This document shows positions 36,652-42,635 of a stretch of DNA of 64,000 nucleotides, piece after piece. Positions within the stretch are counted from its first letter, which is position 1; every line of letters begins with the position of its first letter. The position numbers were made by a program, and so were the translations under genes. This stretch comes from Aliidiomarina haloalkalitolerans (GTDB lineage Bacteria > Pseudomonadota > Gammaproteobacteria > Enterobacterales > Alteromonadaceae), in the NCBI RefSeq assembly GCF_003987315.1, contig NZ_PIPI01000001.1, forward strand, positions 1-64,000, in the 5' to 3' direction. The notes beneath the pieces were generated by a model, which was not told where the DNA came from, searched no databases, and saw only the letters and a program-made list of their open reading frames with translations.

Positions 36652-38007
36652 ATGCGACATCTTTGGCCAGAAACAAAAAAACTTGGCTTACTTACTGGCC
36701 CGATTTTAATCGCGCAATTAACCCAGATGATGATGGGTGTGGTCGACACCTTGATGTCAGGCCGAGTGGGGCCGACCGATCTAGCTGCGGTGGCTGTAGG
36801 CGGCGCGATCTGGATTCCGCTGACCTTGATCATTTTTGGTTTTGGTTTGTCCTTGGCGCCTGTCGTTTCGCATTGTGATGGTGCTGGTGACCGTTCCCAA
36901 CTCGGTCGCCACCTGCAACAGAATCTCTATACGTGTATCATTGCCGCGCTACTCACCGGCCTACTGATGTATTTAGCGCCGTCGGTGCTTGCCGTGATGG
37001 ACGTCGAGCCAGAATTTCGGCGCATGACCTTGGACTATTTGCACTATATTGTGTGGGGTTTACCAGCGTTTGTTCTGTATGTGGTGCTGCGCAACTTCTG
37101 TGAAGGCTTGTCGCATACCATGCCGTCGTTAGTGATTGGCGTTATTGGCCTGCTTATCAACATCCCTGCAAACTATGTCTTTATCTACGGCAAGCTCGGC
37201 ATGCCTGCATTGGGTGGCGCTGGTTCTGGCATTGCGTCGGCGCTTGTTCTGTGGGGGATGGCATTGAGCTTGTTGCTCTATGTGGTGTTGTCAAAGCGCT
37301 ATCGTCCAGTGATGCCGTTCCGTCGTTTTTATCCACCGAATTGGGACGACATGTGGCACTTCACCCGGATCGGTTTTCCAATTTCAATGTCGTTGTTTTT
37401 CGAAACTTCATTGTTTGCTGCGGTGGCGATTTTAATAGCACCATTAGGTGCGATTATGGTGTCAGGCCACCAGATTGCCTTAAACGTGTCGTCGATTGTG
37501 TATATGTTCCCACTCAGTTTAAGTATGGCGGTGACCTTGCGGGTTGGTTTTGCACTCGGTTCGCGGCAGCCGGACGATGCCATGAATGCCTATAAAGTGG
37601 CCATGCTGCTTGGCCTCAGTTTTGCGACGATTAATGGACTGGGCATGTGGCTGGGCGGACGTTGGTTAGCAAGTTTTTACACCGAAAACACGGAAATTAT
37701 TCAGTTGGCGGGGACTTTGCTTGGTTTAGCGGCGATTTTCACCATTTCCGACACCTTCCAAGCGATTTCGATTGGCGCACTGCGTGGTTATAAAGATACC
37801 CGCGCGGCGATGGTCGTCACGCTGATTGCCTATTGGCCGTTTGGCTTGACGGTGGGGATTATCTTGGCTTTGACCGATTTGATTGTGCCGCGCATGGGTG
37901 CAGCCGGCTTTTGGATTGGCTTTATTTCCGGCTTAAGTGTCGCGGCCGTGCTGTTGACCTTGCGCTTGTTCCGCGTCCACTCTGCTTGGGTGGCGAAACA
38001 TAATTAG
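36652..38007 (+). CDS. MATE family efflux transporter
   Basis: An inner-membrane antiporter of 451 residues with 12 predicted spans in two similar halves. The start, TKKLGLLTGPILIAQLTQMMMGVVDTLMSGRVG, is typical of NorM-like MATE proteins, which export drugs or dyes against Na+ or H+. Similarity to NorM (for example VLRNFCEGLSHTMPSLVIGVIGLL) is strong. It starts 32 bp after the desulfurase gene. Confidence 0.93.
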   Translation: MRHLWPETKKLGLLTGPILIAQLTQMMMGVVDTLMSGRVGPTDLAAVAVGGAIWIPLTLIIFGFGLSLAPVVSHCDGAGDRSQLGRHLQQNLYTCIIAALLTGLLMYLAPSVLAVMDVEPEFRRMTLDYLHYIVWGLPAFVLYVVLRNFCEGLSHTMPSLVIGVIGLLINIPANYVFIYGKLGMPALGGAGSGIASALVLWGMALSLLLYVVLSKRYRPVMPFRRFYPPNWDDMWHFTRIGFPISMSLFFETSLFAAVAILIAPLGAIMVSGHQIALNVSSIVYMFPLSLSMAVTLRVGFALGSRQPDDAMNAYKVAMLLGLSFATINGLGMWLGGRWLASFYTENTEIIQLAGTLLGLAAIFTISDTFQAISIGALRGYKDTRAAMVVTLIAYWPFGLTVGIILALTDLIVPRMGAAGFWIGFISGLSVAAVLLTLRLFRVHSAWVAKHN

Positions 38008-38179
38008 CAGCACGCTCTCACTGGCAGTGACTAACTGGCGGCTCTGAATGTTCATGATTCGAATGATTAAAGCCTAAATCGCTTTCATCCTGAAATTCCG
38101 TTGTTTAAACGCAATATTTATGGCCTTCTGAGGTGTACCCCGTATATTGAATTTTTGTTAAATCTACGGGTCAAGTTTC

Positions 38180-40708
38180 ATGCCACAAAATCGTCGTTCT
38201 CCTCTACGTTTATCTCCGCTGGTGCTCGCGCTCGCAGCGGCCTCTTGTGTGACAGTCGCAATTGCTGATGTCCCACTTGTGCAACCGGGTGCCCCAGGGC
38301 AGCCCAGTCGTCAAATCAGTGCTGAAGATGCAATTCAGCTGGTGTCTGCGCGGTTCACGACTGCCGACGTGAAGTTCATGCAAGACATGATTCCACATCA
38401 CCAGCAAGCGTTGGATATGACGGCTCTCCTTGCAGAACGAACCAGCAGTAATGCCATGGTCGAGTTGGCTTCGCGAATCGAGCGTACGCAAGTCGATGAA
38501 ATTGAATACATGACGCAATGGCTTGCAGAGCGCGGACAAACTGTGCCGAGTCGCGATTGGAGTGAACATACGGATCACGGTCATCATGGTCACCACGGAC
38601 ATCACGGTCATGAAGAGCACAGCGGCCATCAAATGATGGAAGGGATGGCAACGCCTGAGCAAATGGAGGCGTTAGCCGCGTCGACTGGGCCTGATTTCGA
38701 CCGGATGTTCCTTGAACTCATGATCAAACACCACGAAGGTGCATTGACCATGGTGGGTGATTTGTTACGTCATCGAGGTGCTGCGGAAGAAGCCGAGTTA
38801 TTTGAATTTGTCAATGAAGTTAAGAACGAGCAAGAAGCTGAAATAGGGCGAATGCTTGTTATGCTTGCTGGCTATTCGCCTGATCCACGGGCCGGCCTCG
38901 CCGCGGGGTTCCGTGATGCTGGTGAAGCCATTTGGAACATGGAATTACTTGCTGCCTTACCGAAGCCAACGGGCTTCTATGATCCAGAAAATCCAGCCGG
39001 CCTGCCTGCAAGCCGCTTACGTGAGCTTGCTAAAGCCGCTGAAGAAAATGATGCCGAGCGCACTGAAGCCGCTGCCGAAGCAAATACTGAAGGAGAAACG
39101 CCAACGCGTTCACGCGGTTCAAGCGATCGTCCGACGTTACTCGATTTCGCCAACACCGACATGGCATTCTCGGATAACACGCTTGTCGTGGGTAGCTATC
39201 ACGGCTTCAAAATTTATGACATTAGTCGTCATGGTGAACCCGAGCTCATCAGTGCCGTCGTTTGTCCGGGTGGCCAAGGTGACGTGTCAATCGTCGGTGA
39301 CTTACTGATTATGTCGGTTGAACAAGGCAGTGGTCGTTTAGATTGCGGATTACGTGGTGTCGCAGGGCAAGTGAGTGAAGAGCGCTTCCGCGGTCTGCGT
39401 ATTTTCGACATCAGTGACTTGACCATGCCGGTGCAAGTGGGCGCGGTGCAAACCTGCCGTGGTTCACACACCCACACGGTCGTTGCGAACGACGATAATC
39501 GTTTGATTGTTTATAACTCAGCAACCAGCTTTGTGCGTGAAGATGAAGAGCTCGAAGGCTGTCTGAATAAAGACCCATTCCGCGATGATCGCACAGCGTT
39601 GTTCCGCATCGATGTCATCGAGATTCCAATCGATCGCCCACAAGACTCACGCATTATTCATAGTCCAGCAGTTTTTGCGGACCCTAACACCGGTAACCTC
39701 GCAGGTCTATGGGAGCGTGGTGACCATGGTCCGGGTACGCAAACGACGAATGAAACGAATCATTGCCATGACATCACTGTATTCCCAGCAGCGAACCTCG
39801 CCGCCGGTGCGTGTTCAGGGAATGGTATTCTTTTTGATATCACGGACCCAGTGAATCCAGTGCGGATTGACGATGTGGTTGACCCAGGCTTTGCATATTG
39901 GCACTCAGCAACGTTCAGTAACGACGGTAGCAAAGTGATCTTCACGGATGAGTGGGGTGGTGGCACTCGTCCTCGTTGCCGTGCATCCGACCCGATGCAC
40001 TGGGGCGCCAATGCCATCTACGACATTGTCGACAATCAGCTCGTGTTCCGCAGCTATTACAAACTGCCAGCACCGCAAAGCGACACTGAAAACTGTGTTG
40101 CGCACAATGGTTCGCTCTTGCCGGTACCTGGTCGCGACGTCATGGTTCAAGCCTGGTATCAAGGTGGTGTCTCGGTGTTTGACTTCACGGATTCATCGAA
40201 CCCGTTTGAGATTGCGTATTTCGATCGCGGCCCTATTGATGAGAAAGCCTTGGTGACCGGTGGTTATTGGTCAACCTACTGGTATCGTGGCCTTGTTTAC
40301 GGTACTGAAATTGTCCGTGGTTTGGATGTTCTTGAGCTGGTACCGAGTGATTATATCAGCGCGAACGAGCTTGCTGCTGCCCGGTTGGTTGATAAGGGCA
40401 AGGAGTTTAATCCGCAGTTGCAAGAAACACTGAGCTGGCCGGCTGAACCAGTGATTGCACTCGCTTACAGAGACCAGCTGCAACGTTCTAACCGTCTTAG
40501 CGAAGCACAAGTGACGCAACTGACCAGCATGCTTGAAGAAACCGAGCAAGCGCTTGAGCGGGGTCGTCGTAATCGCGGATTATCTAATCGTCTGAATAGT
40601 ATGGCGGCGGACATGAAGCGTGAGGCAAATTCCCGTGAAGGAATTGATCGCCAGCGTTTGCACGGCCTTGGTGAGACACTCGAAGGGCTTGCTGCTCGCT
40701 TACGTTAA
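38180..40708 (+). CDS. Exported DUF305 - histidine-rich - LVIVD beta-propeller fusion protein
   Basis: The 842-residue product has a signal peptide (to about AIA-DVP, residue 30; a weak lipobox AASC at 20-23 is an alternative). It then has a DUF305 four-helix domain (50-235) with the paired histidines FMQDMIPHHQQALDM (H73/H74) and FLELMIKHHEGALTM (H184/H185). Between the two halves lies a histidine-rich insert, 12 His in residues 130-150. From about 320 to 760 repeated LVIVD-type blades occur (LVVGSYHGFKIYDISRHGEPELI, RGLRIFDISDLTMPVQV, VSVFDFTDSSNPFEIAYFD). A helical tail follows. DUF305 proteins are linked to copper or other metal stress in some bacteria; a periplasmic metal-binding or sensing role is inferred. 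Confidence 0.9.
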   Translation: MPQNRRSPLRLSPLVLALAAASCVTVAIADVPLVQPGAPGQPSRQISAEDAIQLVSARFTTADVKFMQDMIPHHQQALDMTALLAERTSSNAMVELASRIERTQVDEIEYMTQWLAERGQTVPSRDWSEHTDHGHHGHHGHHGHEEHSGHQMMEGMATPEQMEALAASTGPDFDRMFLELMIKHHEGALTMVGDLLRHRGAAEEAELFEFVNEVKNEQEAEIGRMLVMLAGYSPDPRAGLAAGFRDAGEAIWNMELLAALPKPTGFYDPENPAGLPASRLRELAKAAEENDAERTEAAAEANTEGETPTRSRGSSDRPTLLDFANTDMAFSDNTLVVGSYHGFKIYDISRHGEPELISAVVCPGGQGDVSIVGDLLIMSVEQGSGRLDCGLRGVAGQVSEERFRGLRIFDISDLTMPVQVGAVQTCRGSHTHTVVANDDNRLIVYNSATSFVREDEELEGCLNKDPFRDDRTALFRIDVIEIPIDRPQDSRIIHSPAVFADPNTGNLAGLWERGDHGPGTQTTNETNHCHDITVFPAANLAAGACSGNGILFDITDPVNPVRIDDVVDPGFAYWHSATFSNDGSKVIFTDEWGGGTRPRCRASDPMHWGANAIYDIVDNQLVFRSYYKLPAPQSDTENCVAHNGSLLPVPGRDVMVQAWYQGGVSVFDFTDSSNPFEIAYFDRGPIDEKALVTGGYWSTYWYRGLVYGTEIVRGLDVLELVPSDYISANELAAARLVDKGKEFNPQLQETLSWPAEPVIALAYRDQLQRSNRLSEAQVTQLTSMLEETEQALERGRRNRGLSNRLNSMAADMKREANSREGIDRQRLHGLGETLEGLAARLR

Positions 40709-40714
40709 TCACTA

Positions 40715-40735
40715 GCGCGGTGCGATGCACCGCGT
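40715..40735 (+). terminator. Hairpin directly after the DUF305 fusion gene
   Basis: CGCGGTGC-GAT-GCACCGCG at 40716-40734 is a perfect 8-bp stem, followed by TTGACTTTTCTT. It may terminate weakly; a better terminator lies about 50 bp on. Confidence 0.65.
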
Positions 40736-40768
40736 TGACTTTTCTTACTCTAAAAAATGCTGGGCAAT

Positions 40769-40805
40769 GCCCTAATGCTTGTCAGATAGGCATTAGGGCT
40801 TTAAT
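40769..40805 (+). terminator. Terminator-like hairpin upstream of the hipBST module
   Basis: GCCCTAATGC (40769-40778) pairs perfectly with GCATTAGGGC (40790-40799) across an 11-base loop, followed by TTTAATCACTTTT. It insulates the downstream module. Confidence 0.8.
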
Positions 40806-40927
40806 CACTTTTAACGGAGTTAAACTGCCGAATTTGTAACGAAGTGCGCAATAGTTATTTAAATCATGCAAAAAAGGTATCTCAGTAACAATTAAAGTTA
40901 AAAATTGTCTTTAGCTTACCAATTCGT

Positions 40928-40949
40928 GTATATTTTATACATATATGTA
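40928..40949 (+). promoter_or_regulatory. Palindromic operator candidate upstream of hipB
   Basis: GTATA-TTT-TATAC (40928-40940) overlaps the perfect palindrome TACATATATGTA (40938-40949), 16 bases before the hipB ATG. HipB-type antitoxins dimerise and repress their own operon through palindromes near the promoter, so this AT-rich pair is the likely binding and promoter region. It does not match the E. coli HipB box. Confidence 0.55.
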
Positions 40950-40964
40950 ATTGGAGTGCTTTTT

Positions 40965-41282
40965 ATGAGTCGGTTAATCGACGTAAACGAGAATATTGAG
41001 CACGCGCTTGAACAGTTGAAAATAGCGGTGCAAGACGCGATTAGGCATAGTGCGACGTCTGCCGATAGGCCGTTTACACATATTGACGATATCTCTGAGT
41101 TGGTCGCTGTTTATCGAAAAGAGCATGGCTTGAGCAAAGGCGATTTTACTTTAATGGCTGGCGTGACACCGCACACCATGCGTCGTTTTGAGAACGAGCC
41201 TACATCGATGCGCGTGGATACCTTGATGAGCATCCTCCAGTCTTTTGGCATGACACTCTACGCGGGGCCGATCGATGAATAA
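40965..41282 (+). CDS. hipB: HipB-like DNA-binding protein of a tripartite HipBST module
   Basis: From ATG 40965 (TTGGAGTG upstream) the 105-residue product has a helical N-terminus (NENIEHALEQLKIAVQDAIRHS) and a helix-turn-helix of the Xre/HipB type from about residue 44. The latter reads VAVYRKEHGLSKGDFTLMAGVTPHTMRRFENEPTSMRVDTLMSILQSFGMTLY. An upstream in-frame extension to 40905 lacks a ribosome site. It probably represses the operon and bridges HipS and HipT. Its last 8 bases overlap the next gene. Confidence 0.85.
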   Translation: MSRLIDVNENIEHALEQLKIAVQDAIRHSATSADRPFTHIDDISELVAVYRKEHGLSKGDFTLMAGVTPHTMRRFENEPTSMRVDTLMSILQSFGMTLYAGPIDE

Positions 41283-41625
41283 GATCAGACGTGAACGAGT
41301 CGGCTTCGTGTGGGCGAATGGACGTCTGGCTGGTACTTTAAGCGAAGTCAGCGATGGCTTGCGGTTTGAATACCAGTTTCAATACGACCAAAATTACCTC
41401 CTGAATGGCAGTCCAATTGGCCATCATTTCCCACTCCAAGAGCAGCCTTTTGTATCTGATGTATTACCGCCATTCTTTGAAAACCTGACAAGTGAAGGTT
41501 GGATACGACGCTATCAAAGCGCAAAAGCCCGAACTGACAAGCAAGACTCGTTTGGCCTTTTGTTAGCAAACGGGCGCGACCTGATTGGCGCTGTCAGTGT
41601 CACTCCGCAGCCAAAGGAGGCGTGA
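41275..41625 (+). CDS. hipS: HipS-like antitoxin, free-standing HipA N-terminal subdomain
   Basis: The 116-residue product corresponds to the N-terminal subdomain 1 of HipA: GFVWANGRLAGTLSEVSDGLRFEYQFQYDQN then PIGHHFPLQEQPFVSDVLPPFFENLTSEGWIR, ending NGRDLIGAVSVTP. In ordinary HipA this is fused to the kinase. In HipBST systems it is a separate protein that acts as the antitoxin against HipT. It overlaps hipB by 8 bp and the hipT start by one base (TGATG). The frame contains no frameshift-like remnant, and hipT has its own perfect ribosome site, so the split looks natural. Confidence 0.85.
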   Translation: MNKIRRERVGFVWANGRLAGTLSEVSDGLRFEYQFQYDQNYLLNGSPIGHHFPLQEQPFVSDVLPPFFENLTSEGWIRRYQSAKARTDKQDSFGLLLANGRDLIGAVSVTPQPKEA

Positions 41626-42635
41626 TGGGTATTTGCCTCGGAACGCTCAAACCGACCGCCGATTCGCAATTAACCGAAGGCTTTAGCAGGCGGTTCGTTA
41701 AATCGATGTTTGGATTGCCATCGCTGCCGGTTGGCGGTTTAACCATTGCGATGACTGCAAGTGAGTTCGAACGTCAAGCGGGACCTTATCTTGAGGGGCA
41801 ATCGATTTCTGGCGTGCAGCGAAAAGTGATGGTGCGACTTGAGGGGAATAAGCTTGTACCCGCTCAAGGCAATGGCGATTACATTTTAAAGCCGACGCCA
41901 CCAACTATCTCTCATTTGCCAGAAAATGAACATGCGATGATGAACCTTGCTCGTGCGGTGGGCTTACACGCACCGGATTGTGCGGTGATTCCCTTTGAGG
42001 ACGGAGAGTTTGGTTATATTACCAAACGATTTGACAAGCTTGCGGATGGGCAACGTCTTTTCGTTGAAGACGCAGCTTCACTGTGTCAGGCCCATTCATC
42101 GAACAAAGGCGACCATGACATGTGGTCATACGAATTGGCGATTCGAATCATGTATGAAGCAGCGGGTCGAAAAGCCCCGGTTATCATGAAAGGACTGCAG
42201 CAAGTTCTGTTCGCGTACTTGGTGGGCAATAATGATTTGCACCTAAAAAACTTCGCGATGTACCGCAAGCCGAACTCAGCCAGCACCACGATGTTCGACT
42301 TTACTCCAATGTATGATGTGCTATCGGTTTTCCCGTACCCCGAATACAATCTTGCAGATTACCTGACGTTGTCACTCAACGAAGCAGAACGAGCGGGGAC
42401 TTTCTCGCCGGAATATGAGCACTTCGGTTATTACACCAAACAAGATTTTGTTGCTCTTGGCCAAACGCTCGGTTTGAACGAGAAGGCGGCGACAGCGTTT
42501 GTGACCGTATTGACCGACAAGGTTGAAAAACACCTCAAACCAATTGTCCAAGCTTCGCTGATGCCAGAACCAATGCAAAGGGTCATCATGGAAGAGATTG
42601 AAAACCGAATTGCTTGCTTACGACGAGCGCTTTAA
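41625..42635 (+). CDS. hipT: HipT-like serine/threonine kinase toxin
   Basis: The 336-residue product (ATG at 41625, after AAGGAGG four bases upstream) is the HipA C-terminal kinase without subdomain 1. LEGQSISGVQRKVMVRL contains the SIS motif (S60/S62), placed like the paired autophosphorylated serines of E. coli HipT. Catalytic motifs are GNNDLHLKNFAM (general base Asp and Mg-binding Asn) and FDFTPMYDVLSV (DFG equivalent). Known HipT phosphorylates tryptophanyl-tRNA synthetase; HipA targets GltX. The target here is not known. A GTG at 41622 is a less likely start. The histidine operon terminates toward it from the right. Confidence 0.9.
   Translation: MGICLGTLKPTADSQLTEGFSRRFVKSMFGLPSLPVGGLTIAMTASEFERQAGPYLEGQSISGVQRKVMVRLEGNKLVPAQGNGDYILKPTPPTISHLPENEHAMMNLARAVGLHAPDCAVIPFEDGEFGYITKRFDKLADGQRLFVEDAASLCQAHSSNKGDHDMWSYELAIRIMYEAAGRKAPVIMKGLQQVLFAYLVGNNDLHLKNFAMYRKPNSASTTMFDFTPMYDVLSVFPYPEYNLADYLTLSLNEAERAGTFSPEYEHFGYYTKQDFVALGQTLGLNEKAATAFVTVLTDKVEKHLKPIVQASLMPEPMQRVIMEEIENRIACLRRAL

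Follow-up and report, generated by a model that had tools for sequence, protein, structure and literature searches.

The protein encoded at this locus raises the question of what is done by an apparently exported chain of 842 residues in which a DUF305 domain and a beta-propeller are joined. The gene lies on contig NZ_PIPI01000001.1 of Aliidiomarina haloalkalitolerans (assembly GCF_003987315.1), of which positions 1–64,000 of the forward strand, referred to here as the window, were analysed. An initial annotation, made from the sequence alone, had assigned no function to the combination of DUF305 with LVIVD repeats, and none was found in the literature searched. No paper in that literature, from which subscription journals are mostly absent, deals with DUF305 and LVIVD together, and none of the titles listed in the searches concerns this type of DUF305-propeller protein. 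The papers PMC4520260 and PMC5114695, matched by the text term DUF305, concern DUF3050 or DUF3051 in their available portions.

The gene and the features outside the propeller are as follows.

38180..40708, + strand: DUF305-propeller gene, open reading frame with ATG start, 842 aa
38180..38266, + strand: signal-peptide-like N-terminus, residues 1–29, recognised by eye from the translation
38267..38317, + strand: leader, residues 30–46, with a PxVQPGAPG-type motif well conserved among homologues
38366..38863, + strand: DUF305 domain, residues 63–228 (PF03713, E 2.4e-40, 138.5 bits against a cut-off of 27)
38396..38401, + strand: first HH pair, H73-H74, invariant in 39 aligned rows
38567..38629, + strand: His-rich loop within DUF305, residues 130–150, 11 His by composition count; varies among homologues
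38729..38734, + strand: second HH pair, H184-H185, invariant in 39 aligned rows
40448..40702, + strand: C-terminal helical tail, residues 757–841, from the structure model; optional in the family

Translation from the ATG bore out the open reading frame, and the PF03713 score leaves the DUF305 assignment far above its cut-off. The two HH motifs that had been pointed out are also confirmed, whereas the description of the histidine run needs to be amended. A run of 12 His in 21 residues had been reported; the actual maximum is 11 (2000 shuffles of the protein never exceeded 6). The run falls between the two HH halves of DUF305, inside the PF03713 match, and the order given by the initial annotation, DUF305 followed by the His segment and then the propeller, is therefore to be corrected. 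The loop stressed there as a metal-binding element does exist, but it is highly variable: across 39 rows, the stretch aligned to residues 115–165 contains from 3 to 15 His. In the structure model, residues 132–150 have a pLDDT below 50. As for the tail, it is helical in the model as described, though optional among homologues, being nearly absent past query residue 760 in 7 of the 39 aligned rows (one of the seven, L017, is cut by a contig end). FIMAH was considered as an identity for the tail and rejected (E 0.34, 12 bits against a cut-off of 24.8).

The DUF305 domain is the only match to that family in the window genome. It is related to the structure of the copper-binding protein CopM (5fej; phmmer E 8.7e-10), albeit the score against the CopM family metallochaperone model NF049983 (63.5 bits) is below the NCBI cut-off of 90. 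According to the accessible part of its description, CopM has two DUF305 HH motifs and binds Cu(I) in the periplasm with a KD of about 3e-16 (PMC4335983). The earlier proposal that the DUF305 part is exported and binds metal is thus plausible and partly backed, by the signal-peptide-like N-terminus as judged by eye, by the invariant HH pairs and many invariant Met in the 39-row alignment, and by the kinship with CopM.

The propeller was modelled alone, and its conserved residues were compared with those of the phosphotriesterase of Sphingobium TCM1 (Sb-PTE). The relevant features are listed below; conservation refers to an alignment of 62 rows, one of which is a duplicate (L069 is identical to L054).

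39128..40354, + strand: seven-bladed propeller, residues 317–725 (pLDDT 80.3, pTM 0.85)
39281..39283, + strand: D368, candidate carboxylate of the metal site (D in 61 of 62 rows, one gap)
39467..39475, + strand: H430-T-H432, candidate ligands, blade 3 (H430 in 62 of 62 rows, H432 in 61 of 62)
39767..39769, + strand: H530, candidate ligand, blade 4 (62 of 62)
39902..39904, + strand: H575, candidate ligand, blade 5 (62 of 62), aligned with Sb-PTE H389
39947..39952, + strand: D590-E591 (62 of 62 each), E591 aligned with Sb-PTE E407
40103..40105, + strand: H642, candidate ligand, blade 6 (61 of 62, one gap), with the same 20-residue spacing to a GG as Sb-PTE H475

D327 is likewise kept in all 61 ungapped rows of the 62, and eight propeller Cys are invariant or almost so, suggesting disulphides. 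Overall identity to the window propeller ranges from 59 to 90% in a 26-row alignment (A2). H432, H530, H575 and H642 each come second in their strand of the model, and the strands that bear them can be read as the first strands of four consecutive predicted blades; the blade count of seven is likewise a reading of the strand list of the model. A propeller was thus predicted as the initial annotation had it, but its LVIVD label stays under the Pfam cut-off (PF08309, E 0.096, 12.5 bits against 20.2). The nearest NCBIfam model, TIGR04312 (choice-of-anchor B), scored 43.7 bits with the whole protein and 47.1 with the propeller alone, against a cut-off of 100. By structure comparison (VIA-align) the propeller superimposes on the WD40 chain 8r57_g with a Z-score of 29.5 and an rmsd of 2.4 over 280 residues. 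Judged from its sequence conservation, the propeller looks like the carrier of a metal site of its own that resembles an active site. Its strong conservation, this apparent site and the kinship with a binuclear metallohydrolase described below indicate that it was probably wrong to stress, as was done before, a role of the propeller as a platform for docking or substrate binding.

The choice-of-anchor B genes (L078–L107) were found in 34 of the 116 relatives searched. Their conserved AHN, HD, HSGW, DELDE and DHNG motifs recall the same candidate metal site. No paper using the phrase choice-of-anchor B was found in the literature searched.

A Foldseek search with the propeller alone placed Sb-PTE (5hrm) at rank 1 (E 1.0e-13, query TM 0.66, 15% identity), the next different entry being a designed propeller (9.8e-12). 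In a profile search of the PDB at E ≤ 10 only two entries were retrieved, both of Sb-PTE (E 0.0019 and 0.0039). When the propeller was compared with Sb-PTE by hhalign, the latter represented by an alignment of three sequences only, the probability was 96.9, and 96.0 for the last three blades alone. 5hrm was absent among the 50 matches listed for the whole protein by Foldseek and among the 50 listed by VIA for each model. The metal ligands of Sb-PTE, the structure of which is reportedly the subject of Mabanglo 2016, we take to be E201, H258, H389, E407 and H475, with E201 and H258 forming the N-terminal pair; a plasmid copy of the enzyme carries E, H, H, E and H at these five positions. hhalign paired H575 with H389 and E591 with E407. 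H642 and H475 both lie 20 residues before a GG, with hhalign placing H642 ahead of an insertion. For the upstream blades, hhalign put H432 on H317, one blade out, and another comparison put H530 on H258. In single-sequence blade scoring the co-linear register came third of seven, with 199 against 211 and 204 for the two better ones (shuffle mean 143, sd 10). We consider kinship between the window propeller and Sb-PTE probable on these comparisons. A full Sb-PTE-like ligand set in the propeller is a candidate and unproven, the upstream ligands being left unfixed by the sequence.

A gene for a TCM1-type phosphotriesterase, annotated as hypothetical (L109:2476–4227; 98.7% identical over a 154-residue query), was met on a conjugative plasmid of Sphingobium xenophagum, with a gene for an IS6100 transposase nearby; the plasmid comes from e-waste sediment.

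A genome scan with patterns from the whole protein yielded 45 loci with relatives in Gammaproteobacteria, Alphaproteobacteria and Acidobacteriota, carriers including Idiomarinaceae, Wenzhouxiangella, Pseudohongiella, Brevundimonas, Qipengyuania, Acidobacteriota and others. Both modules share one frame in 38 of the 45. The architecture is thus not confined to the window genome, and the literature searched offers no known role for it. At four loci, all from Acidobacteriota, the modules are two genes: the propeller ATG comes 2 to 5 nt after the DUF305 frame ends, and both proteins start with a signal-peptide-like stretch of their own (by eye). Contig ends cut two further loci, leaving the propeller only (L035) or DUF305 only (L043), and in a Brevundimonas subvibrioides MAG (L036:9121–12228) the frame is broken in the second half of DUF305, by an assembly error or a real loss.

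As a scan with the whole protein favours fusions, searches were also made with the propeller only. In a phylum sample, 11 of 299 genomes matched at 1e-5; nine of these matches were strong, the genomes holding 10 propellers, and the two weak ones (G038, 7.8e-7; G179, 1.6e-6) came from genomes with choice-of-anchor B genes. In a class sample, four of 369 genomes matched at 1e-30, including that of the window. Every one of the 13 distinct strong propellers was accompanied by DUF305, fused in 10 cases and encoded by the preceding gene in three. The pairing is therefore no artefact of the query. No DUF305 turned up in the 30 choice-of-anchor B loci, each spanning about 4 kb, nor near genes of the TCM1 enzyme, so that a metal centre of this kind can work without it. 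In genome G075 two propellers of the family occur (L070 and L077); DUF305 is fused to one of them and encoded by the gene before the other.

On a tree built from 59 propellers, the fused or separate state has to change twice, both changes being forced by well-supported branches; separate genes are basal in it under a midpoint root, used for drawing only. Within the genus of the window, the gene is present in 6 of 17 genomes. Two sequences from the family of the window (L053 and L054) group with an alphaproteobacterial sequence in a mostly alphaproteobacterial clade, and their position apart from the branch of the window suggests horizontal transfer. A search of plasmids with the whole protein gave a single match, a Nonomuraea replicon of 11.85 Mb that is catalogued as a plasmid. 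In Nonomuraea gerenzanensis (L108:5061–8726) a DUF305 gene is divergent to two propeller genes, the second of which encodes L at the position of H432 and keeps H430. Counting this split form, the two-module family, hitherto uncharacterised, is present in at least three phyla. Architecture, conservation and the DUF305 pairing are shown computationally, as is a probable remote kinship with Sb-PTE.

The neighbouring genes are uninformative on function. Among the 45 loci and the window, no other gene cluster is common to more than five loci. Pfam searches of 20 nearby genes gave unrelated families (e.g. M1 peptidase, pyruvate kinase, pseudouridine synthase and acyl-CoA dehydrogenase) and no metal-resistance family; five of the 20 had no Pfam match at 1e-5. 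Scans of positions 37900–41000 for promoter-like sites (one, shuffle mean 2.7) and terminator-like sites (four, shuffle mean 3.4) were at chance level. Just downstream, at 40905–42635 on the + strand, three open reading frames follow one another. The first, of 125 aa, encodes an HTH protein (weak HTH_26 match under the cut-off); the second, of 116 aa, encodes the N-terminal domain of HipA on its own (Couple_hipA), and the third a HipA_C protein of 337 aa. Their order presumably resembles that of the tripartite HipBST toxin-antitoxin arrangement.

Since the conserved His of the propeller are reminiscent of the metal centre in an enzyme known to split phosphate esters, the DUF305-propeller protein is probably an uncharacterised metal enzyme that brings its own metal-handling partner. 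From the above we infer metal binding, the identity of the metal, its transfer between modules, catalysis and the substrate. In the mechanism that we prefer, and to which we give an even chance, the protein is an exported two-module metalloprotein in which DUF305 buffers metal and the propeller metal centre catalyses a reaction, most likely ester hydrolysis. Equipped with HH pairs, Met and a His-rich loop, the DUF305 module would capture and buffer a transition metal outside the cytoplasm, which by analogy with CopM may be copper, and would serve the propeller to which it is fused as an obligate metal-handling partner. The propeller would hold its metal centre at the channel mouth, between His from four consecutive blades and carboxylates, and use it for catalysis. 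The most likely reaction appears to be hydrolysis of an ester, maybe a phosphoester, with the aid of the metal, because among solved structures the nearest relative is the phosphotriesterase of Sphingobium TCM1 with its binuclear metal centre. This enzyme, the known member of the propeller hydrolase fold, we take to be Mn-dependent. A CopM-like copper chaperone beside such a fold is an unexplained mismatch and counts against the hydrolase reading. We put forward, more tentatively, that there is a widespread natural family of exported propeller metalloenzymes with a dedicated metallochaperone, encoded at first by neighbouring genes and fused at least twice, which would be a natural relative of the phosphotriesterase that degrades flame retardants. 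To our knowledge, the protein would then be the first metalloenzyme with a CopM-like chaperone in its own polypeptide.

The main rival explanation, in our opinion an unlikely one, makes the protein a copper oxidoreductase like the SBP56/MtoX methanethiol oxidases, with copper on the His ring of the propeller and DUF305 as the copper chaperone. The resemblance of DUF305 to a Cu(I) chaperone fits such a role, as do the portions available of two reports, which describe MtoX and SELENBP1 as propeller enzymes of seven blades that depend on copper and have essential His, and in which mtoX adjoins a gene for a SCO1/SenC copper chaperone (PMC5739008, PMC10362175). However, the profile search of the PDB gave phosphotriesterase only, and the window propeller did not match the MtoX model NF052453 at E ≤ 1. 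Membership of SBP56/MtoX, which the His pattern had suggested, was rejected for lack of a sequence match at E ≤ 1, and copper oxidation stays as a rival mechanism only. SBP56 chains were also absent among the 50 matches listed for each of the structure searches, an absence that is not decisive.

It seems rather less probable that both modules merely bind metal for sequestration or resistance, the propeller being extra capacity or a sensor rather than a catalyst. The copper sensitivity of copM mutants, stated in the accessible part of PMC4335983, and the variable, buffer-like composition of the His-rich loop would suit such a function, but the invariant carboxylates and the enzyme kinship favour catalysis over sequestration, and the neighbourhood described above adds neither a shared cluster nor a metal-resistance family. 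Least convincing is a binding scaffold, in which the propeller would be a platform for docking or substrate binding and its His and Cys would have structural roles: the VIA matches with the highest Z-scores are mostly WD40 scaffolds and the eight near-invariant Cys point to disulphides, but one His at an equal strand position in four consecutive predicted blades, together with H575 and E591 aligned to what we take to be metal ligands of an enzyme, would not be expected of a plain scaffold.

On the preferred reading of a metal enzyme with its own metal-handling module, the protein matters in several respects. We know of few roles assigned to DUF305 beyond CopM. That all strong cases found combine DUF305 with this one type of propeller provides the domain with a concrete partner and a testable job, namely metal supply or buffering for an exported enzyme. 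The propeller is relevant, too, to the role in nature of two groups: the relatives of the TCM1 phosphotriesterase, which is itself of use against organophosphate flame retardants, and the uncharacterised choice-of-anchor B proteins, whose motif set it shares in part.

Four known systems can be compared with the window protein. CopM of Synechocystis (PDB 5fej and others) shares the DUF305 domain with its two HH halves and many Met; in the accessible text on it, CopM is a protein of about 196 residues in which the propeller is absent (PMC4335983), and the long His-rich loop is a feature of the window protein, unlike CopM. SBP56, SELENBP1 and MtoX likewise place a His metal site on a propeller, and MtoX is, in the available portions of its descriptions, exported and linked to a copper chaperone gene (PMC5739008, PMC10362175), but their HH and HxxH motifs differ from the pattern of one His per blade seen in the window. 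The choice-of-anchor B proteins align with the last three blades of the window propeller, H575, D590-E591 and H642 mapping onto the motifs HSGW, DELDE and DHNG, respectively, and they have extra C-terminal domains, unlike the window protein. Finally, Sb-PTE (PDB 5hrm, 5ioj), a binuclear-metal phosphotriesterase or haloalkylphosphorus hydrolase, shares the propeller fold and a remote sequence similarity of about 15% identity, the likeness in ligands comprising two aligned positions (H575 with H389, E591 with E407) and one matched by spacing (H642 with H475); DUF305 is absent from three loci with Sb-PTE-like genes, whereas it is fused to the propeller of the window.
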